64,000 nt of DNA. It comes from Halocynthiibacter styelae. Its GTDB lineage: Bacteria > Pseudomonadota > Alphaproteobacteria > Rhodobacterales > Rhodobacteraceae. The position numbers and the translations under genes are program-made. A model generated the notes under the pieces. The model searched no databases. It saw nothing but the letters and a program-made list of their open reading frames with translations, and was not told the origin of the DNA. The stretch lies in assembly GCF_016123485.1 (NCBI RefSeq), contig NZ_JADCKQ010000003.1, positions 186,001 through 250,000 on the forward strand. The letters are read 5' to 3'. Shown here one piece after another: positions 33,169 through 45,197 of the stretch; position 1 is the stretch's first letter, and every line of letters starts with the position of its first letter.

Positions 33169-34584
33169 TTACGCAGCGGACCGGCAGAAACTGACGGTAT
33201 TGCGCCCCATATTCTTTGACGCGTAAAGTGCCTGATCTGCCTGTTGCAACAAGCCTTCCGGGTGCTGTTGGTTGCCCTGGCCTCCAGGCCCCATAGACAC
33301 ACCAATCGACAGGGTCACGTGGATTGGTTCCATGCCCGGCGCGGGAACAATGGGAATTTCTTCAACAAGACGGCGCAGGCGTTCTGCCGCGCCCCGGGCC
33401 TGATCCATCGTCGTATCCGGCATAGCCACCAGGAATTCTTCGCCCCCGATACGCGCAATCAGATCCACATCGCGCAGATTATCCCGCAGGCGATGTGCCA
33501 CCGCGCAAAGCACCTGATCCCCGACCTGATGCCCCCAGGTGTCGTTCACCTGTTTGAACCGATCAATGTCCATCATCATCACCGCGAAGGAATGGCCGGA
33601 TGTACGGGAATGTTCGCTGATCCGTGTCAGGTGTGTGAAAGCATACCGGCGGTTATAGAGGCCCGTTAAAGAATCCTGCATCGCAAGGCGCAACCGGTCA
33701 CGTACAGAATTACGCAGCTGATCAGAACGACGCTTGCGGGTGACCAGGGCATCAATGCGGATTTTCAGTTCTTCTGGGGTGAAACCGCCGGTGATCAGAT
33801 CATTTGCACCCAGATCCAGTGCGATCACTGCCTGTTGTGGGGCGCCTTCCCGCAGAACCATGATGATCCCTGCATGGCGGGTCGCCGGACGCGAGCGCAG
33901 TTCCGAAAGCAGACGCAATCCTTCGTCCTGACGTGTCAGATCGCCCGAAATGACAAACACATCCGGGGCTTTCCCGGTATCGCTGCCTTTCGGTTCCTCC
34001 CGGGCCGGCGCAGGCCAGGAGAGTGCGTTTTCCGGGGCAATGACCCGGGTGTTGTGCCGACTGTCCACAGAGGCCAGGGCAGCCTTCCAGGATACCGCAT
34101 CCCCGCCTGGCGCAATCAGGGCGACATTGGCAGGTTTTACAAAGTCAGACGCAATCTCTGCAAAGCCCAGTTCGCGGGATGTATCATCGCGCAGGCGCAG
34201 TTCATTTTCTGTTTCCCGGGCACGCAGCAGGCTGCGTACACGTGCAAGCAGCGTCATTTCATCCAGAGGTTTTGGCAGATAATCCTGCGCACCTGCACGC
34301 AGGGCGGCGATGCGTGCCTCTGCGCTGTTGCAGGTAATCGACATAACCACCGGGCAATCCCGGGTCAGCGGGTCTTTCTGCAGTTGTGCGCAGACAGCGT
34401 CACCTGACATATCTGGCAGCTCATGGCTGAGGATGATGAGATCCGGGTTTTCCCTTTTGGCAATCTCCAGCGCATCTGCGCCGGTGCCCGCTTGAGAAAC
34501 GTGATAACAGGCACCCGTCAGGCGGACCTTCAGCATAATGCGATTGGTCGCTACATCGTCAACAATGAGGATGCGTCCTGCCAT
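33169..34584 (-). CDS. PleD-like diguanylate cyclase with degenerate receivers
   Basis: ATG 34584 (AGGTGAG upstream) gives 471 residues. Residues 1-120 are a receiver domain with acidic pair Asp9-Asp10, but Ser53 stands where PleD has the phosphoacceptor Asp (LIILSHELP). A second receiver-like domain (about 155-290) also has Ser at the equivalent place (VFVISGDL). A GGDEF domain follows with RIGGEEF and an inhibitory RDVD five residues before it, so c-di-GMP synthesis and product inhibition look intact. Activation by phosphorylation does not. It is convergent with the sensor gene, four bases away. Confidence 0.88.
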   Translation of the reverse strand: MAGRILIVDDVATNRIMLKVRLTGACYHVSQAGTGADALEIAKRENPDLIILSHELPDMSGDAVCAQLQKDPLTRDCPVVMSITCNSAEARIAALRAGAQDYLPKPLDEMTLLARVRSLLRARETENELRLRDDTSRELGFAEIASDFVKPANVALIAPGGDAVSWKAALASVDSRHNTRVIAPENALSWPAPAREEPKGSDTGKAPDVFVISGDLTRQDEGLRLLSELRSRPATRHAGIIMVLREGAPQQAVIALDLGANDLITGGFTPEELKIRIDALVTRKRRSDQLRNSVRDRLRLAMQDSLTGLYNRRYAFTHLTRISEHSRTSGHSFAVMMMDIDRFKQVNDTWGHQVGDQVLCAVAHRLRDNLRDVDLIARIGGEEFLVAMPDTTMDQARGAAERLRRLVEEIPIVPAPGMEPIHVTLSIGVSMGPGGQGNQQHPEGLLQQADQALYASKNMGRNTVSFCRSAA

Positions 34585-34667
34585 ACTGTTTCTCACCTAT
34601 TTCGAATTTACTGTTGATCTCTTCTCCGGCAGAATACTTAAAAAAAGCTTTCACAAGGGTTAACAGA

Positions 34668-34952
34668 ATGACGATGACGCGGGAGTCCGCCGAGACAATT
34701 GGTTTACAGGTTCTGGCCTGGCTGGTGGGCAATGAAGACCTGCTTCCGGTCTTCCTTGGGGCTTCCGGCGCGTCGGAGGCAGACATCCGTCAACAGGCTG
34801 GAAACGCTGAGTTTCTCGGATCTGTTCTGGATTTTATCCTGATGGATGACGCCTGGGTCACGCAGTTCTGTGACGGGCAGAATCTACCCTATGAACGGTT
34901 GATGCAGGCCCGGATGAGTCTTCCGGGTGGTGAAATTGTTAACTGGACCTGA
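34668..34952 (+). CDS. DUF3572 family protein
   Basis: ATG 34668 follows AAGGG by eight bases. The 94-residue helical protein (ESAETIGLQVLAWLVGNEDLLPVFLGASGAS, FLGSVLDFILMDDAWVTQFC) matches DUF3572, an alphaproteobacterial family of unknown role. It is divergent from the PleD-like gene, with the shared promoter region at 34585-34667, an arrangement I recall from related genomes. Confidence 0.85.
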   Translation: MTMTRESAETIGLQVLAWLVGNEDLLPVFLGASGASEADIRQQAGNAEFLGSVLDFILMDDAWVTQFCDGQNLPYERLMQARMSLPGGEIVNWT

Positions 34953-35000
34953 TCAACTCACCATAAATGGGTAACCACGTTTTGGGGTGATTCTCCTGTT

Positions 35001-38000
35001 TCAGAGATCCACCTCAAGCACGCCGCCTGGTTTGGCCGCGCGGGACTGACAAAGGATAATCGCGTTTTCGCGTTCCTTATTGGACAGCACAAAATCGCGA
35101 TGTTCGGCTTCGCCTGAAATCAGCCCGCATTTGCAGACCCCGCACAGACCGTCGGAACATTTCACGTCAATATGCACGCCCGCGGCCAGGATGGCGTCGG
35201 TCGGGGCCTCATCTGCTTTGACTTCAATCACCTTACCGGATTTCGCCAGTTTCAGAGTGAAATCGTGGTTCTCATAGTCCGGCGCGTCGGGCACGGCGAA
35301 ATATTCCAGATGGCGCGCCTCTTCCGGGAAACCGCCGGCCTCTGCCGCGTCCATCACGCCATTCATATAGGCATCCGGCCCACAGGTATAAACATGCATG
35401 CCCGGCTTATATTGCAGCAGGGCATTCAGATCGGCGCGGGTGTCTTCATCTGAGAAATGCAGGTGTACTTTATCCGCCCAAGGCATATTCGGCAGATCGT
35501 TAAGGAAACCCGCATTGGCGCGTTTGGAACAGGAATAATGCAGGGCGAAATCTTTGCCCAGGGCGTGCAGGCGATGCGCCATGGCGATCATGGGGGTCAC
35601 GCCAATGCCGCCGCCCATAAGGAAGGTGAAGCTGGCGTCTTCCGCTAGTGGGAAGTGGTTGATCGGGTGCGAGATAAAGACCTTGCGCCCTTCTTCAAAG
35701 ATCCGGTGCATTAGTTTTGATCCGCCACGCCCGCTGTCTTCCCGCAGAACCGCGATCTGATATTTGCTGCGATCCGCAGGATTGCCGGACAGGGAATATT
35801 GCCGGAAGAACTCTGGCGCGACCACCACGTCAATATGGGCACCCGCCGTCAAAGGCGGCAGGTCGGATCCATCGGGCAGGCTGAATTCATATTTCGTCAC
35901 GCCTTCGGTCATTTTCTCAGCCTTAGAGATCACAACCTGCATCACCGGGCTTTCCGCCTGGTCCGCGGTGTAGATATGTTCCGGCGGCAGGCCCTGCGCG
36001 CGGCGGGTTTTGTGTTCGTCGGCTGCGATCATTTCGCCATAAGCCTGAATGCCGGCCTCCCGATCCATCGGCGCAGGCCAGCCCCAGGGTGGCGGGGCAA
36101 GCGGCGCAGGATAAACGGCCAGGGTCTGATCTTCATATTTCAGATCCAGATTTTTCTGTAGCGCACGCGCATTCACAGGCGCGGCCGGGGCGCGGTAGGC
36201 CCCGTCATCCAGCATCTCAAGATCCCACCACCATTTCTTACCGGGAACGACTTCGCCATTGCCAACAAAGTCATCAAGCTTTGCCAGAAGTTTCGCAGAT
36301 CCCGGCGCAGTCATGGCGAGTTTGCGGAAGGGTTCTTCCTTAAACAGGCCTTCAAGGTTCCAGGGACAGGTCTTCATGCAACGCCCGCACATGGCCCCGT
36401 TTTTATTGGTGATGCGATAGGTCGTGCACTTCTGACTGTCGGATTTCCAGATTTCATAGCCGTTGAACATCAGCTTTGGCCCGGCGGTAATGGCACCAGA
36501 CGGGCATTCGCGGGCGCATTTGTTGCAGGCTTCGCAGAACTTCTGCAGGCCGAAATCAATCGGCTTGTCGTGGGTCATCGGCATATTGGTGGTGACAACG
36601 CCGGATTTCAGACGCGGACCCAGGAAGGGGTTCAGGATGACCTCGCCAATGCGGGATACCTCACCCAGACCGGACAGCAATAACAGCGGCGGGTGCAGAA
36701 CCTCATCATCCATCACGCTATGCACACGCGCGGTATAACCCAGGCGGCGGATATGTTCGGCCAGAACCCCGCCCAACAGGGAAAACCGCAGATAGGCCCG
36801 CATCGATTGCGCACAGGCGATCCAGTCGTCGCCAGACGCGCCTTCCATGGTTTCGTGGCCCTGATCAATCACCATGGAAATGGCGTTGTCATGGTAAGGC
36901 GTGATCACTTGCCCGGCGGCGTCATGGCTATAATAGGCGTAATCGGGGCAGGCCGACAGACCGCAGGCGTCGACGCCCAGCCAATACAGCGCAGCTTTGA
37001 TATTGGTGGCGTTTTTATCGGGGTCCAGGGTCGACGGATGCACCTCTGCCGCTTCGCCATCCTGCAACAGAATAAACGCCCCAAGAGACGGGCGAAAGGC
37101 AAATGCAGACGCCGATTTGCGCATGAAATTCCCGTTCTTCGCCCCGTCCTGCACATGTTTGCCAAGGTCACCAAACAGCGAACGCGCAAACATATTTGCG
37201 CGTTTTGGCACGCGGGCGACATTCACGGCGTCAATATAAGTGGTCGTATCTTCCACCCGTTTCAGCGTTTCAAACGGATGCGTGCCTTTCACGTAATCGC
37301 GTTTGGCGTATGGATCGCGGTTCTTTGCGTTCTTCGCCTGTTTGCCCAGCCCCTGCGTCCAGGACATCCCACCGCTTTGCCCCGGTGCAATGGGCTGATC
37401 CGGGGCCATTTCCAGCGTGGTTGTCACAACGGAAATCGTGAAGTCCCGCCCGATGAACGGGTTCGTCAGCTGGCCATCATCCATCGCCGCCAGCCCGCTT
37501 TCCAGCGCAAGGTGATCAAGATGCACATCCGTCGCAGCCATGGAATGCGCGCGGGCGTCATAACCAAGGGAGCGGATATAACTGGCCAGCGTCACAGCGC
37601 TTTCCATCCCACGCAGGGCGGCGCGCTGTTCATGGGCATCCCGGATCCAGTCACTGCCGGTTTCATCCACACGCGGATCGCGTTGATGGTCATACATCAT
37701 AACAATCGCGTGGCTGTGATGGTGACAGTCAGGGTTTGGCGTGCGCAGGGCTTCACGCAGGTTGGCCATCACCACATCAACACCAGCGGCCAGGGTTTTC
37801 ACCTGCATGGTTTCAAGCTTATTACCCAACCGCGCCACATCTGGGTTTTCAATGGGTTCCGGCAGCCAGGCCCCCTGCGGGATCGCACAGACACCGGCCA
37901 TAGGTGTGTCACAGAAATACGCAAAGCTTTTCAGGTGGCCGCTGCGTTCCTGCAAATCTGCTGGGATCTCTGCGATTTCCTTTTTGACCAGCCCTTCGCG

Positions 38001-38195
38001 CGTCGCATCCAGCATCGCCTGATATTCCTGCATCGCATTGACAATCGACAGGGGATCATCCGGGCGACGGAAGGAAAGCCCGGCCTGGGGCGCAAGTTGA
38101 TCGGCACTTTCAGCGCGCACAACACGTGTCAGTTTCTCAAGCGGATAAGCGCCCTGATGAAAGGGACGGTTTTTATAGGAAAAGAGCTTGCCCAT
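35001..38195 (-). CDS. Self-sufficient cytoplasmic reductive dehalogenase fused to NAD/FMN/[2Fe-2S] reductase
   Basis: The 1064-residue protein is the NpRdhA/BhbA type. Residues 1-280 and 300-570 are related halves, an internal duplication also known in NpRdhA; the second should bind cobalamin and substrate (CPDYAYYSHDA at 416-425). Two [4Fe-4S] clusters follow: Cys554, 557, 560, 564, and Cys590, 603, 606, 610. Residues 750-1064 are a phthalate-dioxygenase-reductase-like module: RQYSLS for flavin, GGGIGVTPM and YTCGPDAYMNG for NAD, then Cys1013, 1018, 1021 and 1049 for [2Fe-2S]. No Tat signal or RdhB anchor, so it is cytoplasmic and aerobic-type. Halogenated phenols are likely substrates. A marR gene lies 30 bases upstream. 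Confidence 0.9.
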   Translation of the reverse strand: MGKLFSYKNRPFHQGAYPLEKLTRVVRAESADQLAPQAGLSFRRPDDPLSIVNAMQEYQAMLDATREGLVKKEIAEIPADLQERSGHLKSFAYFCDTPMAGVCAIPQGAWLPEPIENPDVARLGNKLETMQVKTLAAGVDVVMANLREALRTPNPDCHHHSHAIVMMYDHQRDPRVDETGSDWIRDAHEQRAALRGMESAVTLASYIRSLGYDARAHSMAATDVHLDHLALESGLAAMDDGQLTNPFIGRDFTISVVTTTLEMAPDQPIAPGQSGGMSWTQGLGKQAKNAKNRDPYAKRDYVKGTHPFETLKRVEDTTTYIDAVNVARVPKRANMFARSLFGDLGKHVQDGAKNGNFMRKSASAFAFRPSLGAFILLQDGEAAEVHPSTLDPDKNATNIKAALYWLGVDACGLSACPDYAYYSHDAAGQVITPYHDNAISMVIDQGHETMEGASGDDWIACAQSMRAYLRFSLLGGVLAEHIRRLGYTARVHSVMDDEVLHPPLLLLSGLGEVSRIGEVILNPFLGPRLKSGVVTTNMPMTHDKPIDFGLQKFCEACNKCARECPSGAITAGPKLMFNGYEIWKSDSQKCTTYRITNKNGAMCGRCMKTCPWNLEGLFKEEPFRKLAMTAPGSAKLLAKLDDFVGNGEVVPGKKWWWDLEMLDDGAYRAPAAPVNARALQKNLDLKYEDQTLAVYPAPLAPPPWGWPAPMDREAGIQAYGEMIAADEHKTRRAQGLPPEHIYTADQAESPVMQVVISKAEKMTEGVTKYEFSLPDGSDLPPLTAGAHIDVVVAPEFFRQYSLSGNPADRSKYQIAVLREDSGRGGSKLMHRIFEEGRKVFISHPINHFPLAEDASFTFLMGGGIGVTPMIAMAHRLHALGKDFALHYSCSKRANAGFLNDLPNMPWADKVHLHFSDEDTRADLNALLQYKPGMHVYTCGPDAYMNGVMDAAEAGGFPEEARHLEYFAVPDAPDYENHDFTLKLAKSGKVIEVKADEAPTDAILAAGVHIDVKCSDGLCGVCKCGLISGEAEHRDFVLSNKERENAIILCQSRAAKPGGVLEVDL

Positions 38196-38225
38196 GGATC
38201 GGATCTTTCGGCTGGCTGTGTGGGG

Positions 38226-38675
38226 TCAGAGACGTTGCAGCGGGTCGTCTTCACCCGTGCGCAATTTTGAAAGGAGCGCGCGCAACTGCGTGCTTTCCCC
38301 TGCTGTCAGTTTATCTTCGAAATGTGCGGCGTTGCTGGCTGCGAACTGGCTGGCGAGATCCAGGCGTTTTTCGGCTTCTGCCGTCAGGCCCACGCGGGTT
38401 GTGCGCTTGTCTTTGTCGCCACCCTGCCGTTCGATCAACCCGCCCGCTTCCATCTGGCGCAATGCGCGCGAGGTTGCGGTGCGGTCAATGCCAACGAAAT
38501 CCGCGATGTCGGAAGGTTGTGACAATCTCTGCGGCCCGGCGGCCAACAGAATACACCAGGTGATACGGGTCAGGCCGATTTCTTTCAGGCGATTTTCAAA
38601 ACCGCGTTCAAGCTGCCGCGCGGTTACAGAAATCTGATAGCCAAGAGAGGCGTGAAGGTCATAGGGTTCAGTCAT
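38226..38675 (-). CDS. MarR-family regulator of the dehalogenase
   Basis: The 149-residue winged-helix protein has ITWCILLAAGPQRLSQPSDIADFVGIDRTATSRALRQMEAGGLIERQ and GGDKDKRTTRVGLTAEAE as the wing. It precedes the dehalogenase gene by 30 bases in the same direction, so both share a transcript. MarR proteins often release DNA on binding phenolic ligands, fitting a halophenol substrate. ATG 38675 has no Shine-Dalgarno sequence; a TTG at 38693 lies inside the operator. The message may be leaderless. Confidence 0.88.
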   Translation of the reverse strand: MTEPYDLHASLGYQISVTARQLERGFENRLKEIGLTRITWCILLAAGPQRLSQPSDIADFVGIDRTATSRALRQMEAGGLIERQGGDKDKRTTRVGLTAEAEKRLDLASQFAASNAAHFEDKLTAGESTQLRALLSKLRTGEDDPLQRL

Positions 38676-38679
38676 GGTG

Positions 38680-38694
38680 ATTGACAATGTCAAT
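38680..38694. promoter_or_regulatory. MarR-type operator palindrome
   Basis: ATTGACA-A-TGTCAAT is a perfect 7-base inverted repeat with one central base, four bases upstream of the marR start codon. It would block marR-rdhA transcription if bound, which suggests autoregulation. Confidence 0.7.
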
Positions 38695-38795
38695 TAAATG
38701 CAGATCGGTCAAGATAATTCTGGCAAGACGTCCCGGTACAACCTAAAGATTCACCCAACGAGACCGCCCATCAGGGCGGAAGAGGAGGAAGCCGA

Positions 38796-39488
38796 ATGGC
38801 AAAAGATATTGGGGCGCTGCTGTTTGATAAGGACGGCACATTATTTGACTTTGAAGGCACCTGGGGGCAGTGGGCCGTGCGGGCGTTGGCGGAAATCACC
38901 GCCACACCGGAAGAAGCCAAGGCGCTGGGCGAACATATGGGCGTGGATGCGGAAACCGGAAAGTTTCAGCCCGGATCTGTGATCATCGCAGGCACGCCGC
39001 ATGAAATCGTTGCCAAAGCGCGGGAGTTGCGTCCGGATTTTGATGCGGATGAACTTTACACAACCATTAATCGAATCGCGACAGAGGTGATCCCGGTTGA
39101 GGTCACGCCTCTGCCACCGCTGTTAAAAACGTTCCGCGATATGGGGATGAAGCTGGGTGTTTGTACGAATGACACCCTGGAACCAGCCTATGCGAATCTG
39201 ACCCATGCCGGGGTGCGCGATGACTTTGACCTGGTGCTTGGTGCGGACAGCGGCCATGTGCCCAAACCCGCGCCGGATGGCCTGTTTGTTTTTGCGAAAC
39301 ATGTGGGCGTTGATCCCGCGCGTTGCGCCATGGTGGGCGACAGTCTGCATGATCTGCAATCCGGCCGCGCGGCGGGCATGAAAACCATTGCAGTGCTGAC
39401 GGGCGTTGCACCGACGGAAGAGCTTGCCCCTTACGCGGATGTTGTCCTGCCGGATATCAGCCACATTCCGGCCTGGCTGGCAGAATAA
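38796..39488 (+). CDS. HAD-superfamily phosphatase, phosphoglycolate-phosphatase-like
   Basis: The 230-residue protein has HAD motif I DKDGTLFD (residues 11-18), motif II in VCTNDT, a Lys in VPKPAPDGL, and motif III-like MVGDSLHDLQSGRAAG. The cap is helical (C1 type). The substrate could be phosphoglycolate or a related phosphoester. GAGGAGGAAGCCGA precedes the start. It diverges from marR and ends at a strong terminator. Confidence 0.9.
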   Translation: MAKDIGALLFDKDGTLFDFEGTWGQWAVRALAEITATPEEAKALGEHMGVDAETGKFQPGSVIIAGTPHEIVAKARELRPDFDADELYTTINRIATEVIPVEVTPLPPLLKTFRDMGMKLGVCTNDTLEPAYANLTHAGVRDDFDLVLGADSGHVPKPAPDGLFVFAKHVGVDPARCAMVGDSLHDLQSGRAAGMKTIAVLTGVAPTEELAPYADVVLPDISHIPAWLAE

Positions 39489-39499
39489 TCCAGAATTTT

Positions 39500-39530
39500 A
39501 AAAGGGCAGAGATCACTCTGCCCTTTTTTC
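39500..39530 (+). terminator. Terminator after HAD phosphatase gene
   Basis: AAAAGGGCAGAG (39500-39511) pairs with CTCTGCCCTTTT (39516-39527) around a four-base loop, followed by more Ts. Strong rho-independent terminator. Confidence 0.94.
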
Positions 39531-39606
39531 GTGGCGCTGCCGGGGTTGTCCGGATGTTGCGCATAAGAATTTTAAGCGGCGAAAAGCGCAGCTTCGGATT
39601 TTGAAA

Positions 39607-39623
39607 GCGACATTTTCTGTCGC
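39607..39623. promoter_or_regulatory. Small palindrome upstream of mttB-like gene
   Basis: GCGACA (39607-39612) and TGTCGC (39618-39623) are inverted repeats with a five-base AT spacer, 67 bases before the start codon. They could be an operator for the methyltransferase gene. No matching known consensus. Confidence 0.35.
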
Positions 39624-39689
39624 GAATGTCTGCGATTTGGCGTGACGCAGCGGGTCTTCTGTTCGCAACAGTTATGAACGGAGCGCAAC

Positions 39690-41243
39690 ATGGCAGATCC
39701 CAAACGCAGAAAACGGTCGGGTGGCCGCGCAGGCAACACCCGGCGCGAGGCCGCAGCGATTGACCAGATGCCCTGGCGTCTGCCGCAGAATATTGACCGC
39801 CCGACCGAGCCTCTGACACCGGAAGGCGTGGAGGCCGTTCATGATGGCGCTATGCGTATTCTGGAAGAGATCGGCATTGATTTCCTGAATGAGGAAGCGA
39901 TTGAGATCTTTAAAGAAGCGGGCTGCAAAGTTGACGGCGAAAACGTGAAGATGGATCGTGAATGGGTGATGGAGATGCTGTCCCATGCCCCATCCGACTT
40001 TCACATCACCCCGCGCAACCCGGATAAACAAATTCACGTGGGCGGCAAAACCATGCTGTTCGGCAATGTGTCTTCCCCCCCGAATTATTACGACATCGAA
40101 CAGGGTCGCAAAACCCCGGGCACCCGTGAACAATGCGCCAATCTGCTGAAACTGACCCAGTATTTCAACTGCATCCACTTCGCAGGTGGTTATCCTGTGG
40201 AACCTGTGGATGTGCATGCATCGGTCCGTCACCTGGACGTGGTGCATGACAAGCTGCTGCTGACCGATAAAGTCGTGCATGCCTATTCTCTGGGCAAAGA
40301 GCGCGTTGAAGACGTGATGGAAATGGTGCGCATTGCCGGTGGTATGACGCATGAGGAATTCGACGCCCGTCCGCATATGTACACCAACATCAACTCCACC
40401 TCGCCCCTGAAGCATGACGAACCAATGATTGATGGTTGTCTGCGCCTTGCACGTCGCGGTCAGGCGATCTTTGTGACGCCGTTTACCCTGGCGGGTGCGA
40501 TGGCACCTGTGACCATGGCAGGCGCTGTGGCGCAGTCTATTGCCGAGGCCCTGGCGGCCATTGTCCTGTTCCAATACGTGCGCCCGGGCGTGCCCTGTGT
40601 GATCGGGACATTCACCTCAAACGTCGATATGAAATCCGGCGCACCGGCGTTTGGCACGCCAGAATATATGCGCGCCACGCAGATGACCGGCCAGATGGCG
40701 CGCTTCTACAAACTGCCGATGCGCGCAAGCGGCTCCTGTGCGGCCAACGTACCGGACGGGCAGGCGATGTGGGAAACCTCAAACGCGCTTTGGTCTGCTG
40801 TGCAATCCGGCACAAACATCGTTTATCACGCGGCGGGCTGGCTGGAAGGCGGTCTGATCGCAAGCCCCGAAAAATTCATCATGGATTGCGAAGTGATCCA
40901 GATGATCCAACGCTATATGGAACCCGCGATCACCGCTGCGGGACCGGATGAAATCGCATTTGATGCGATCAAAGAGGTTGGTTCTGGCGGGCATTTCTTC
41001 GGGATTGACCACACCCAGGAACGCTATGAAACTGCTTTCTATCAGCCCTTTGTGTCTGACTGGCGCAACTTTGAGGCCTGGGAAGTAACCGGCGGCATGT
41101 GGACGGCCGAACGTGCCCATCGCACCTATAAGCAGATCCTTGAGGAATTTGAGGCACCTGCGATGGATGTGGCGATTGCGGATGAGTTGCGCGAATTTGT
41201 TGAACGCCGCAAACGCGAGGGCGGTGCGCCAACCGATTTCTGA
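39690..41243 (+). CDS. Trimethylamine methyltransferase-family protein (MttB superfamily, non-pyrrolysine)
   Basis: This 517-residue TIM-barrel protein belongs to the MttB superfamily (GAMRILEEIGIDFLNEEA, MRASGSCAANVPDGQAMWE, VYHAAGWLEGGL). There is no in-frame stop, so no pyrrolysine; such members (MtgB-like) demethylate quaternary amines such as glycine betaine, passing the methyl to a corrinoid protein. No corrinoid protein (MtgC) or methyltransferase II gene is adjacent. The N-terminal 30 residues are basic. GGAGCGCAAC precedes the ATG. The substrate is unknown. Confidence 0.88.
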   Translation: MADPKRRKRSGGRAGNTRREAAAIDQMPWRLPQNIDRPTEPLTPEGVEAVHDGAMRILEEIGIDFLNEEAIEIFKEAGCKVDGENVKMDREWVMEMLSHAPSDFHITPRNPDKQIHVGGKTMLFGNVSSPPNYYDIEQGRKTPGTREQCANLLKLTQYFNCIHFAGGYPVEPVDVHASVRHLDVVHDKLLLTDKVVHAYSLGKERVEDVMEMVRIAGGMTHEEFDARPHMYTNINSTSPLKHDEPMIDGCLRLARRGQAIFVTPFTLAGAMAPVTMAGAVAQSIAEALAAIVLFQYVRPGVPCVIGTFTSNVDMKSGAPAFGTPEYMRATQMTGQMARFYKLPMRASGSCAANVPDGQAMWETSNALWSAVQSGTNIVYHAAGWLEGGLIASPEKFIMDCEVIQMIQRYMEPAITAAGPDEIAFDAIKEVGSGGHFFGIDHTQERYETAFYQPFVSDWRNFEAWEVTGGMWTAERAHRTYKQILEEFEAPAMDVAIADELREFVERRKREGGAPTDF

Positions 41244-41263
41244 TCTGTTGTAAATCCGGGAAA

Positions 41264-41292
41264 AGGGCCGCTTTACTGCGGCCTTTTTTGTC
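41264..41292 (+). terminator. Terminator after mttB-like gene
   Basis: GGCCGC (41269-41274) pairs with GCGGCC (41281-41286); flanking A and T runs (AAAA / TTTTTT) extend the stem past a one-base bulge. Typical rho-independent form. Confidence 0.85.
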
Positions 41293-41398
41293 TGTGACTG
41301 CCAGATCTGAAAAGTAGTTCAACCTTTACAGACCCTTGAAAATTAAGGCTCCTGTTAACAGGTCTCTGCGACTGTGATCCCAGGAAAAGGGGTTTTCT

Positions 41399-41998
41399 AT
41401 GCATGGGCTGATTAACAGATCAATTCAGTGTTTTACCCGCGATACCTATGGCGAACAGGTCTGGGCGCAGGTGATGGAACGGGCGGATACCGGCTATGTC
41501 GGATTCGAAGCGATGCTAAGCTATGAAGATGATGTCAGCTATCAGGTGCTCGACGCCCTCGCTTTGGTGCTGAGCCGGACGCGCCAGGAAGTGATGGAAG
41601 ATATCGGGACCTATCTGGTCAGCCATGAAAAAATCGGGGCTGTTCGTCGTTTGTTGCGTTTCAGTGGTGTGACTTTCGCCGATTTTCTGCACTCCCTTGA
41701 TGAATTACACGAACGCGTGCGCCTTGCTGTGCCCGAACTTATCGTGCCGCAACTGACGTTGAAGGAACATGCCAGTGGGCGTTTCAGTCTTCATTCCGCC
41801 TGGGAACATCCGGATTTTGGTTATGTTGTCATGGGGCTTTTGCGCGGCATGGCGGATGATTACGGGGCCCTTGTTTTCATGGATCATCAGGGGGTTACCA
41901 AATACGGCGAAGTGATTTCCATCGAGGTTGTGGAGGCGGATTTCGCCGAAGGCCGTTCCTTCATGCTGGGATCTGATGCGGAGGCTGCGCATGGCTGA
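41399..41998 (+). CDS. H-NOX-family (heme NO-binding) sensor lacking the YxSxR motif
   Basis: The 199-residue protein starts MHGLINRSIQCFTRDTYGEQVW, a typical H-NOX opening, and has the probable haem ligand His104 in HSLDELHERV. The conserved YxSxR motif that grips the haem propionates should be near 131-135; instead FSLHSAW is present, with Leu131, Ser133 and Trp135. Haem binding may thus be weak or altered. It is coupled by an eight-base overlap to an HNOBA-like diguanylate cyclase, so it should control c-di-GMP in response to NO or another ligand. Confidence 0.85.
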   Translation: MHGLINRSIQCFTRDTYGEQVWAQVMERADTGYVGFEAMLSYEDDVSYQVLDALALVLSRTRQEVMEDIGTYLVSHEKIGAVRRLLRFSGVTFADFLHSLDELHERVRLAVPELIVPQLTLKEHASGRFSLHSAWEHPDFGYVVMGLLRGMADDYGALVFMDHQGVTKYGEVISIEVVEADFAEGRSFMLGSDAEAAHG

Positions 41999-43040
41999 GG
42001 AAAATGAAATGCAGTTGCAGGATATGGAGGCGCTTGATCAGCTTATGCCAATGAACCTTCACGTCAGCGAAACCGGTCATATCACGCATGCCGGGCCGAC
42101 GGTTCAGAAGATATTCGGCGATGCGTCATTGGAAGGCATGCGCTTTCTTGAGGTCTTTGAGGTCCGACGTCCGGGCGGCGTGAATTCAGTCACCGCGCTG
42201 CAGAAGGCCACGGGGCGGGTGTTGCACCTGACCTTCCGCCATGACCCTGCTGGCCGGTTCAAGGCCCTGGCTGTCGGGGCGGGTGACGGTAAAGATCTGA
42301 TCGTAAATATGTCTTTCGGCATCTCCGTGATCGAAGCGGTGCAAAATTACAATCTGACCAGTGCTGATTTTGAACCAACCAATCTTGCTGTTGAGATGCT
42401 GTTTCTGGTGGAAGCAAAAACCGCTGTGCTGGATGAGTTGCGACAGCTGAACGGGCGGCTGGAAGGTGCGCGCGTCGTGGCTGAGGCGCAGGCAACGACA
42501 GATATGCTGACGGGGCTTGGCAATCGACGCGGGATGGATCTGAAGTTGGCAGACCTGATGGAGCGGAACGAACGTTTTGGTCTCATGCATATTGATCTGG
42601 ATTATTTCAAAGATGTGAATGACACCCTGGGCCATGCCGCCGGTGATCATGTGTTAAAGATCGTTGCCAAAATCCTGCGCGACGAAACTCGTGAAGGGGA
42701 CATGGTGGCGCGCGCCGGGGGGGATGAATTTGTACTGCTTTTTCCAAGGCTGACCAATACGGAACGCCTGAACGATATCGCGCATCGTATTATTGCGAAA
42801 CTGGAACAGCCCATTGAATTTGAAGGGGAAACCTGCCGAATTTCCGGGTCGGTTGGCACAACGGTTTCTGACTTCTATAAATCCCCCACGGCGGAACGGA
42901 TGCTGGCGGATGCAGATGTGGCGCTTTATGCGTCCAAGCATAAAGGCCGCGCACAAGCCACGGTCTGGTCCGAACATCTGGCGGCGGCAACCCAGGCAGA
43001 AATGGCCAATGCGCCCCCGTCTCGCGAAACCCGCCACTAG
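41991..43040 (+). CDS. Diguanylate cyclase with HNOBA-like sensor-partner domain
   Basis: ATG 41991 has GGAGG seven bases upstream and overlaps the H-NOX gene. Residues 1-140 of the 349-residue protein resemble the heme-NO-binding-associated (HNOBA) domain; a short helical linker follows (LDELRQLNGRLEGARVVAEAQA), then a GGDEF domain with AGGDEF and an inhibitory REGD five residues ahead. It should synthesise c-di-GMP under control of the H-NOX partner. No EAL domain is fused. Confidence 0.9.
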   Translation: MAEENEMQLQDMEALDQLMPMNLHVSETGHITHAGPTVQKIFGDASLEGMRFLEVFEVRRPGGVNSVTALQKATGRVLHLTFRHDPAGRFKALAVGAGDGKDLIVNMSFGISVIEAVQNYNLTSADFEPTNLAVEMLFLVEAKTAVLDELRQLNGRLEGARVVAEAQATTDMLTGLGNRRGMDLKLADLMERNERFGLMHIDLDYFKDVNDTLGHAAGDHVLKIVAKILRDETREGDMVARAGGDEFVLLFPRLTNTERLNDIAHRIIAKLEQPIEFEGETCRISGSVGTTVSDFYKSPTAERMLADADVALYASKHKGRAQATVWSEHLAAATQAEMANAPPSRETRH

Positions 43041-43150
43041 TTGCTGGCATGCGAAAAATACAGCGCCCCTTGCAGCCGGGTCTGGTCGATACTAAGACTC
43101 TGTTAAGACTATAGCTCTATCGATCAAGTGACAGAAGCAGGCAGGTACTG

Positions 43151-43774
43151 ATGAACGATCCACATGAATTCTACATGAACACCCTTGTTCCTATGGTTGT
43201 CGAACAGACATCCCGCGGCGAACGGGCCTATGATATTTTCTCACGCCTGCTGAAGGAACGGATTATTTTCCTGTCCGGCCCGGTGCATGATGGCATGTCC
43301 AGCCTGATCGTCGCGCAGCTTCTGCACCTTGAAGCAGAAAATCCGACCAAGGAAATTTCCATGTATATCAACAGCCCCGGCGGTGTTGTGACCTCCGGCC
43401 TGTCGATCTACGACACGATGCAGTACATCAAGCCAAAGGTTTCTACCCTTTGTGTTGGTCAGGCCGCGTCCATGGGGTCGCTTCTGCTGGCCGCTGGTGA
43501 AGCCGGTATGCGTTATTCCCTGCCGAATTCCCGCGTGATGGTGCATCAGCCATCCGGCGGATACCAGGGCCAGGCAACTGACATTATGATTCACGCCCAG
43601 GAAACGCAGAAACTGAAAGATCGTCTGAACGCGATTTACGTGAAACACACCGGTCAAAAGATGAAAGCGGTTGTGGATGCGCTGGAACGTGACAACTTCA
43701 TGTCCGCAGAAGACGCAAAAGAATGGGGTCTGATCGACGAAATCGTGGAAAACCGCGATAAATCGGCTGATTAA
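43151..43774 (+). CDS. clpP: ATP-dependent Clp protease proteolytic subunit
   Basis: The 207-residue serine peptidase has catalytic Ser in [14 protein letters not shown] and His in [11 protein letters not shown], with Asp in the C-terminal DRDN-type segment. The length is normal. It forms tetradecamers with ClpX or ClpA. The clpX gene follows after 151 bases; that gap is large enough for its own promoter. Confidence 0.97.
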
Positions 43775-43925
43775 CCCTGACCGCAGGATCATTGGAAAGT
43801 GATGATTTTGCGATTGTAGAAGATCAAGGGGTGCCCTAAACTCATGTAAAGGGCGCTCCGGCCGGGCGAAATACGCACCGGGGCTCAAAAGGGCCGCAAC
43901 GGGGCAAAAGCCTCAGAGGATGAAG

Positions 43926-45197
43926 ATGGCGAATAATTCTGGTAACGACAGCAAGAACACTCTCTACTGCTCCTTCTGCGGCAAAAGCCAGCATGAGGTG
44001 CGCAAGCTGATCGCCGGCCCAACGGTTTTTATCTGCGATGAATGCGTGGAACTCTGCATGGATATCATCCGTGAAGAAACAAAATCTGCCGGTCTGAAAT
44101 CATCTGAAGGCGTGCCGACCCCGCTGGAAATCTGTCAGGTTCTGGATGATTATGTCATCGGTCAGGCCCATGCGAAACGCGTGCTGTCTGTTGCGGTGCA
44201 TAACCATTACAAACGTCTGAATCACGCCAGCAAAAACGGCAGCGATATTGAGTTGGCCAAATCCAATATCATGCTGATTGGTCCGACCGGTTGTGGTAAA
44301 ACTCTTCTGGCACAAACACTTGCACGCATTCTGGATGTGCCGTTCACCATGGCGGATGCCACCTCTCTGACCGAGGCCGGTTACGTTGGTGAAGATGTTG
44401 AGAACATCATTCTGAAACTGTTGCAGGCGTCTGAATACAACGTGGAACGTGCGCAGCGCGGCATCGTTTACATCGACGAAGTTGATAAAATTACCCGCAA
44501 GTCCGACAACCCGTCCATCACCCGTGACGTATCTGGTGAGGGCGTGCAGCAGGCGCTGTTGAAAATCATGGAAGGCACTGTGGCCTCTGTTCCGCCGCAA
44601 GGTGGCCGGAAGCACCCGCAGCAGGAATTCCTGCAGGTCGACACCACAAATATCCTGTTTATCTGCGGCGGCGCATTTGCCGGGCTTGATAAGATTATCG
44701 GGCAACGTGGCAAAGGGTCTGCCATGGGCTTTGGCGCGGATGTACGTGAAGAAAACGAAAAATCTGTAGGCGAGCATTTCAAAGATCTCGAACCGGAAGA
44801 TCTGCTGAAATTCGGTCTGATTCCGGAATTCGTTGGCCGTCTGCCAGTGATTGCGACGCTTGAGGATCTGGATGAAGACGCGCTTGTCACCATCCTGACC
44901 AAGCCGAAGAACGCGCTTGTGAAGCAATATCAGCGTCTGTTTGAGATCGAAGAAACAGAATTGAAGTTCACCGACGAAGCCCTGGTTGCAATTGCCCGCC
45001 TGGCGATTACCCGCAAAACCGGTGCCCGTGGCCTGCGTTCCATCATGGAAAACATCCTGTTGGATACCATGTTTGAGTTGCCAGGGCTGGAAAGCGTTGC
45101 AGAGGTCGTTGTGAACGAAGAGGCCGTCAATTCCGAGGCGGCACCGCTTTTGGTGCATGGCGACGCCAAACAGGAAGAACCGGCCAGCGCCGGTTGA
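43926..45197 (+). CDS. clpX: ATP-dependent Clp protease ATP-binding subunit ClpX
   Basis: GAGGA lies five bases before ATG 43926, so this start is preferred to ATG 43920. The 423-residue AAA+ unfoldase has the N-terminal zinc domain (CSFCGKSQ and [10 protein letters not shown]), Walker A GPTGCGKT, Walker [11 protein letters not shown], and the IGF-type loop in the ClpP-contact region ([11 protein letters not shown]). It feeds tagged proteins into ClpP. A terminator follows. Confidence 0.97.

Follow-up and report, generated by a model that had tools for sequence, protein, structure and literature searches.

We analysed a 64,000-nucleotide stretch of the Halocynthiibacter styelae genome (contig NZ_JADCKQ010000003.1, positions 186,001 to 250,000; hereafter "the window") and find that a gene on its minus strand (35001-38195) very probably encodes a cytosolic, self-sufficient catabolic reductive dehalogenase that works by the mechanism proposed below and is controlled by a MarR-family regulator. 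By sequence it belongs to a known class, the self-sufficient catabolic reductive dehalogenases exemplified by BhbA and JtRdhA, and is itself uncharacterised. Because the enzyme class is known, the protein itself is no surprise. Relative to the literature, which was surveyed in part, the newer parts of the finding are a conserved MarR site upstream of the gene and a locus shared with many relatives.

The gene is a single open reading frame (ORF) with an ATG start that specifies 1064 residues. The NCBIfam model for reductive dehalogenases, TIGR02486, gives its product 200.9 bits (cut-off 160.35), and the product's nearest solved structures by sequence are the chains of NpRdhA (E = 8.5e-153 to 2.9e-152). 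In near relatives the gene is under purifying selection, with a ratio of nonsynonymous to synonymous substitution rates (dN/dS) of about 0.05 (0.048 against locus L031 and 0.063 against locus L032, dS 1.6; a third comparison was saturated). Together, the model score, the NpRdhA E-values and the dN/dS indicate that this is not a chance frame.

An earlier note on this DNA described duplicated cobalamin-fold halves, two [4Fe-4S] motifs and a flavin mononucleotide (FMN)/NAD/[2Fe-2S] reductase fused in one chain, and this architecture is borne out (all coordinates on the minus strand). The N-terminal half (residues 1-300; 37296-38195) has no Fe-S motifs and is recognised by internal duplication and by its model on NpRdhA; residues 159-272 align with the second half over 116 positions (39%, E = 9e-15). 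Alanine and threonine stand opposite the catalytic residues Y468 and K530 in this alignment, which fits a vestigial copy. The functional cobalamin/substrate half (residues 301-550; 36546-37295), delimited by alignment, carries F336, S464, M465, Y468 and K530. It is followed by the two [4Fe-4S] motifs (residues 554-613; 36357-36536; Pfam Fer4_16 and Fer4_7, and alignment), with R594 between their cysteines, and the chain ends in an FMN/NAD(P)/[2Fe-2S] module like phthalate dioxygenase reductase (PDOR) (residues 749-1064 plus the stop codon; 35001-35951; Pfam Fer2), of which residues 749-1058 match the PDOR structure 2PIA (E = 3.8e-57). Read by eye, the N-terminus (MGKLFSYKNRPFHQGAYPLEKL) has neither an RR motif nor a hydrophobic stretch, and the protein would be soluble and cytosolic, without need of a membrane partner. 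A respiratory dehalogenase of the PceA type was rejected on the missing RR motif. RdhB is not among the nine neighbouring genes scanned (33169-45197), a scan that did not include RdhB's own model. Neither the Rfam scan nor the tRNA scan of the window gave a hit.

To place the catalytic residues, 104 distinct proteins, including that of the window, were aligned by MAFFT with residues 108-682 of NpRdhA. The earlier note had proposed this alignment as a check on NpRdhA Tyr426, Lys488 and Arg552; these correspond to Tyr468, Lys530 and Arg594 of the window protein and are invariant in 104/104, as are the counterparts of NpRdhA S422, M423 and F291 (S464, M465 and F336). All eight [4Fe-4S] cysteines (554/557/560/564 and 590/603/606/610) are kept in every aligned protein, and the [2Fe-2S] cysteines (1013/1018/1021/1049) in 102 to 104 of the 104, the exceptions being alignment gaps. 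We also built an AlphaFold2 model from 54 sequences (mean pLDDT confidence 81.9, pTM 0.81) and compared it to solved structures with VIA-align 2. Residues 1-736 superpose on NpRdhA 6ZY0_A with Z 36.4 and a root-mean-square deviation (rmsd) of 2.8 over 668 aligned residues at 39% identity. Residues 748-1064 superpose on 2PIA with Z 29.2 and 303 aligned residues; the rmsd of 13.2 over the whole module probably reflects shifted modules in the model. Segments with pLDDT under 50 are residues 1-4, 451-456, 585-587, 691-709 and 968-972.

These results bear on the idea that the protein performs no dehalogenation, being either a relic or an enzyme with some other redox role, for example of the QueG kind. 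Several of its pocket residues are indeed unlike those of NpRdhA, but the catalytic residues and [4Fe-4S] cysteines are invariant and dN/dS is near 0.05, and we consider this idea highly improbable. The epoxyqueuosine reductase QueG was itself rejected, with only 22.8 bits for TIGR00276 against a cut-off of 200.

Comparison with described enzymes places the window protein more closely. Catabolic reductive dehalogenases fall into those with and those without a reductase, most having one, and members from Ruegeria pomeroyi and Pseudovibrio appear in a published tree of these enzymes (PMC10463259). JtRdhA (WP_104007082), from the marine bacterium Jhaorihella thermophila, was purified in 2023 (PMC10463259). 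As described there, it is like the window protein in having a duplicated cobalamin domain, two [4Fe-4S] clusters, a fused PDOR, no twin-arginine translocation (TAT) signal and equivalents of Y426/K488/R552. JtRdhA differs in having a measured activity: with NADPH it acts on ortho-bromo- and ortho-iodophenols, with a one-to-one coupling that holds in the presence and in the absence of air (PMC10463259). According to the same report, it turns over none of the chloro compounds tested, with 3,5-dichloro-4-hydroxybenzoate acting as a competitive inhibitor, and it converts 3-bromo-4-hydroxyphenylacetate at 99.3% of its best rate and enables E. coli W to grow on this compound (PMC10463259). The earlier note had named NADH as the reductant of the window protein; this is unproven, since the fused relative was assayed with NADPH.

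BhbA, from Comamonas sp. 7D-2 (plasmid pBHB, NC_021077), is 48.0% identical to the window protein over 100% of the query and shares the active-site Y, K, R, S, M and F. However, BhbA is plasmid-borne and adjoins protocatechuate ring-cleavage (4,5-dioxygenase) genes, whereas the window gene occupies a site common to many relatives, has a MarR gene beside it and has no ring-cleavage gene among its scanned neighbours. NpRdhA (Nitratireductor pacificus; 4RAS, 6ZXU, 6ZXX, 6ZY0 and 6ZY1) shares the fold and catalytic residues noted above, with 253/564 aligned positions identical, but ends before the reductase module, relies on separate electron donors and differs in residues at the pocket mouth. The resemblance to NpRdhA and BhbA drawn in the earlier note thus holds as a comparison, but NpRdhA is not the closest architecture; because it has no reductase domain (PMC10463259), BhbA and JtRdhA are closer. 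Ros_A3X954 from Roseobacter sp. MED193 is, like the window protein, a TAT-less reductive dehalogenase; it comes from a marine Roseobacter, debrominates 2,6-dibromophenol and loses activity on exposure to oxygen (PMC13101508). The motif positions given for it (283-294 and 337-345; PMC13101508) suggest a short form that lacks the duplicated half.

Drawing on JtRdhA and NpRdhA, we propose the following mechanism. A hydride from NAD(P)H would reduce the FMN of the reductase module at the C-terminus, and single electrons would then travel by way of the [2Fe-2S] cluster and both [4Fe-4S] clusters to a base-off cobalamin in the second half. With the hydroxyl of an ortho-halogenated phenol held by S464, K530 and R594, cob(I)alamin would take the halogen, Y468 (paired with K530) would supply a proton, and the halide would leave as the ring gains a hydrogen. 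The N-terminal half may be a vestigial duplicate that imitates the second subunit of a dimer. By analogy, the window protein would be expected to load its cofactors, to be active and oxygen tolerant, to prefer bromo and iodo over chloro substrates and to take a nicotinamide cosubstrate. The genome encodes CobN (its two pieces together score 1026.5 bits, cut-off 822.05), which represents one step of cobalamin synthesis rather than the whole pathway.

We next consider regulation. Directly upstream on the same strand, its stop 30 bp from the dehalogenase, lies a gene for a 149-residue MarR-family regulator (38226-38675, minus strand; Pfam HTH_27, MarR_2 and MarR). The Pfam matches were scored on an ORF with a longer TTG start, and the ATG at 38675 was chosen from the sequence. 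Four bases before this ATG ends a perfect 15-bp palindrome with a one-base centre, ATTGACATTGTCAAT (38680-38694, minus strand), a putative MarR operator whose conserved form in relatives is TTGACANTGTCAA. In a set of 106 other dehalogenase loci, from which the window and exact copies were left out, such a MarR gene immediately precedes the dehalogenase in the same orientation at 44. Within the 80 bases before the MarR start and the first 12 inside it, 18 of these 44 loci match the conserved form exactly; at best, 10 loci have one mismatch to it, 8 have two, 5 have three, 1 has four and 2 have five. The site is therefore present within two mismatches in 36/44 loci, compared to 0.33 expected per dinucleotide-shuffled set, although many of the loci are related and so not independent. 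The site is kept where the MarR protein is only about 42% identical (Aminobacter, locus L115, one mismatch). The MarR protein would bind here, act as a repressor and respond to an inducer, and the dehalogenase is probably co-transcribed with the upstream MarR and controlled by it through the palindrome. The control of dehalogenases by MarR proteins is not in itself a novelty, since MarR-type regulators of reductive dehalogenase genes are known in Dehalococcoides. A MarR protein and a reductive dehalogenase of that genus are treated in PMC4635342. In the part of the literature surveyed there was no paper on a MarR operator for this dehalogenase gene.

The exact site occurs twice in the H. styelae genome, before the MarR gene and at C12:263760-263772 (L150 1500-1514). 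This second copy coincides in part with the beginning of an efflux gene of the Bcr/CflA type (TIGR00710 226.9 bits, cut-off 200.9). An efflux gene under the same operator would fit a role mainly in detoxification, in which halogenated phenols induce the dehalogenase through MarR and the carbon is not used. The conserved site itself and the lack of catabolic genes among the scanned neighbours are also consistent with such a role. On the other hand, one extra exact site in 3.7 Mb is near chance (about 0.2 expected), and there are 10 sites with at most one mismatch (2 exact and 8 with one mismatch, 7 of these 8 lying inside predicted ORFs) versus 9 for the reversed pattern; we regard the efflux gene as a lead, not a result. 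Furthermore, BhbA is part of a growth pathway and JtRdhA supports growth on a brominated substrate, as described above. We therefore hold a role mainly in detoxification to be possible but somewhat doubtful.

Several observations weigh against assigning the window gene as a MarR-controlled dehalogenase of this type. An adjacent MarR gene is missing in 62/106 loci, and 8 of the 44 MarR-bearing loci have three or more mismatches to the conserved site. The Fe-S stretch of the structure model (residues 561-610), which includes R594, is weak throughout (block means 54-69). Lastly, the second-halogen pocket and its mouth are unlike those of NpRdhA (A419 to C461, F290 to M335, K307 to A352, P311 to M358 and N452 to V494), the pairing from K307 to P311 being less sure because a two-residue gap adjoins. 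A419 of NpRdhA lines the pocket for the second bromine (PMC7565698). The window protein also departs from its own family here: F357, at the position of NpRdhA F310, is Y in 97/104 members, and M358, at that of P311, is V in 89/104. Because the pocket varies outside the invariant core, the substrate choice of the window protein cannot be read off NpRdhA, and the statement in the earlier note that its substrate is unknown remains true.

To narrow the candidates, we looked at aromatic catabolism in the H. styelae genome and in 50 dehalogenase-bearing genomes (50 of the best 80 loci), which were searched for pobA and hmgA. In one scenario the enzyme yields 4-hydroxybenzoate, which is then broken down by way of protocatechuate, the fate reported for the BhbA product. 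Protocatechuate 4,5-dioxygenase genes adjoin BhbA on pBHB, a homolog on plasmid pOM-1 of Nitratireductor sp. OM-1 adjoins pobA and protocatechuate dioxygenase genes, and pobA is over the cut-off in 37 of the 50 genomes. However, no association between pobA and the dehalogenase is seen across 37 family genomes, pobA occurring in 10/14 with the gene and 14/23 without a full-length copy (Fisher p = 0.72). The H. styelae genome itself has no PobA over the cut-off (best E = 5e-7) and no match for PcaH or HpaB_N, but it has HPD and HmgA over the cut-off, a combination that makes the 4-hydroxybenzoate/protocatechuate 3,4-cleavage route unlikely in this genome. There is also no ring-cleavage gene among the nine scanned neighbours; no search aimed at LigAB was made. 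Overall, we judge a BhbA-like fate of the product to be rather improbable.

In a second scenario, the dehalogenase removes bromine or iodine from halogenated 4-hydroxyphenylpyruvate, 4-hydroxyphenylacetate or tyrosine, and the product passes to HPD and HmgA. The gene content of H. styelae just described favors this route, as does the near-maximal rate of JtRdhA on 3-bromo-4-hydroxyphenylacetate, and bromotyrosine compounds are reported to be widespread in marine sponges. In addition, hmgA is found in 46/50 dehalogenase-bearing genomes versus 23/37 family genomes that lack the full-length gene, and in 22 of these 23 it exceeds the cut-off (Fisher p = 0.001). This p value overstates the case, and the contrast is only a hint of a tyrosine/homogentisate link, because the two sets of genomes were sampled differently and are related by descent. 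No tyrosine or homogentisate genes are among the nine scanned neighbours, and halotyrosine is not among the tested substrates of any member in the literature surveyed in part. A tyrosine/homogentisate link of the dehalogenase is thus possible but unproven, and we put this role forward tentatively.

To determine how widespread the gene is, we searched 101 genomes, comprising H. styelae, 60 others of its family and 40 from other families of the class. A full-length relative is present in 24/61 family genomes, so the gene is not rare. None of the 40 genomes from other families has one; the matches listed there are truncated or single-domain. Family genomes also contain shorter frames of about 400-460 residues (for example G057:C1:2887160-2888014 and G043:C5:17040-17849) that share roughly 30-36% identity with the dehalogenase core and are perhaps of the Ros_A3X954 kind. 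In a single scan of GTDB contigs, from which the best 80 of 246 relatives were kept, 76 have titles that we take to be Rhodobacterales taxa, three name only Alphaproteobacteria or Pseudomonadota and one is Pimelobacter. The dehalogenase locus of this last record (L064; Actinomycetota by title) clusters inside Rhodobacterales, and it is probably a mislabelled bin. Of 72,556 plasmid records, 8 contain a single place that spans at least 80% of the query. In the five of these eight full-length records that were examined, aromatic ring genes adjoin only BhbA and the Nitratireductor OM-1 homolog, both distant, and there are none in the annotated 8-kb flanks on the plasmids of Ruegeria TM1040, Jannaschia M317 and Aminobacter SS-2016.

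The genomic setting suggests a long history at one site. The window dehalogenase is flanked on one side by a converging DUF3572 gene and PleD and on the other by the MarR gene followed by a diverging HAD hydrolase and an MTTB homolog. No partner catabolic operon is among the nine scanned neighbours (MarR, HAD, MTTB, HNOB, GGDEF, ClpP, ClpX, PleD and DUF3572). Of the best 80 loci, 47 have DUF3572 at most 150 bases downstream on the opposite strand (some contigs end early), and the site is chromosomal in at least L088, a record titled chromosome, and L004, a 4.3-Mb contig. By comparison, DUF3572/PleD is found in 0/20 of loci L005-L024 (flanks up to 1.5 kb). In a quick tree of 105 rows with SH-aLRT support only and no bootstrap, one clade of 77 rows (support 99) contains the window and all rows with a close DUF3572, together with loci elsewhere, for example in Leisingera. 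Another clade of 22 rows (support 99) has none with a close DUF3572, and five full-length rows fall outside both. Viewed from the site itself, in 30 DUF3572 loci (29 relatives and H. styelae) the dehalogenase adjoins in 4, HAD takes its place in 22 and neither is present in 4. One of the 22 HAD loci (L139, from genome G013, which has no dehalogenase match) still has a MarR gene, located between DUF3572 and HAD, an indication of loss. We provisionally take the MarR-dehalogenase unit to be an old resident of the DUF3572 site that is lost or absent in many genomes and located elsewhere in others. Among ten neighbour ORFs sampled at loci outside the usual site (E up to 1e-10), nothing was recurrent; four of the ten had no family, and the families found were Orn/Lys/Arg decarboxylase, fumarase, malonyl-CoA synthase, sulfotransferase, glycosyltransferase and a LuxR-type regulator.

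Two further features of the neighborhood were observed. The MTTB-family methyltransferase homolog (39690-41243), which is near the dehalogenase in many relatives, scores 740.7 bits with Pfam but reaches 288.7 on the model for the trimethylamine equivalog, whose cut-off is 525. Beyond it, a haem-NO-binding protein overlaps a diguanylate cyclase ORF (window 41399-43040), and the two are perhaps an NO-sensing c-di-GMP pair.

The fused dehalogenase is common and strongly conserved in this marine family, sits at the same site in many genera and is often paired with a predicted regulator and its binding site, which gives it ecological weight. Given this regulator and site, the natural substrate is directly testable through what releases MarR from TTGACANTGTCAA. 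We tentatively suggest, as a possibility that may well not hold, that in marine Rhodobacteraceae the MarR and dehalogenase genes form a regulated unit of long standing on the chromosome, directed at naturally occurring halogenated 4-hydroxyphenyl compounds of the halotyrosine type. Unlike BhbA, a plasmid-borne gene of pollutant degradation, this unit would either supply the homogentisate route or act in detoxification alongside an efflux pump that shares its operator. The finding also bears on the return of bromine and iodine from natural organohalides in oxygenated seawater.

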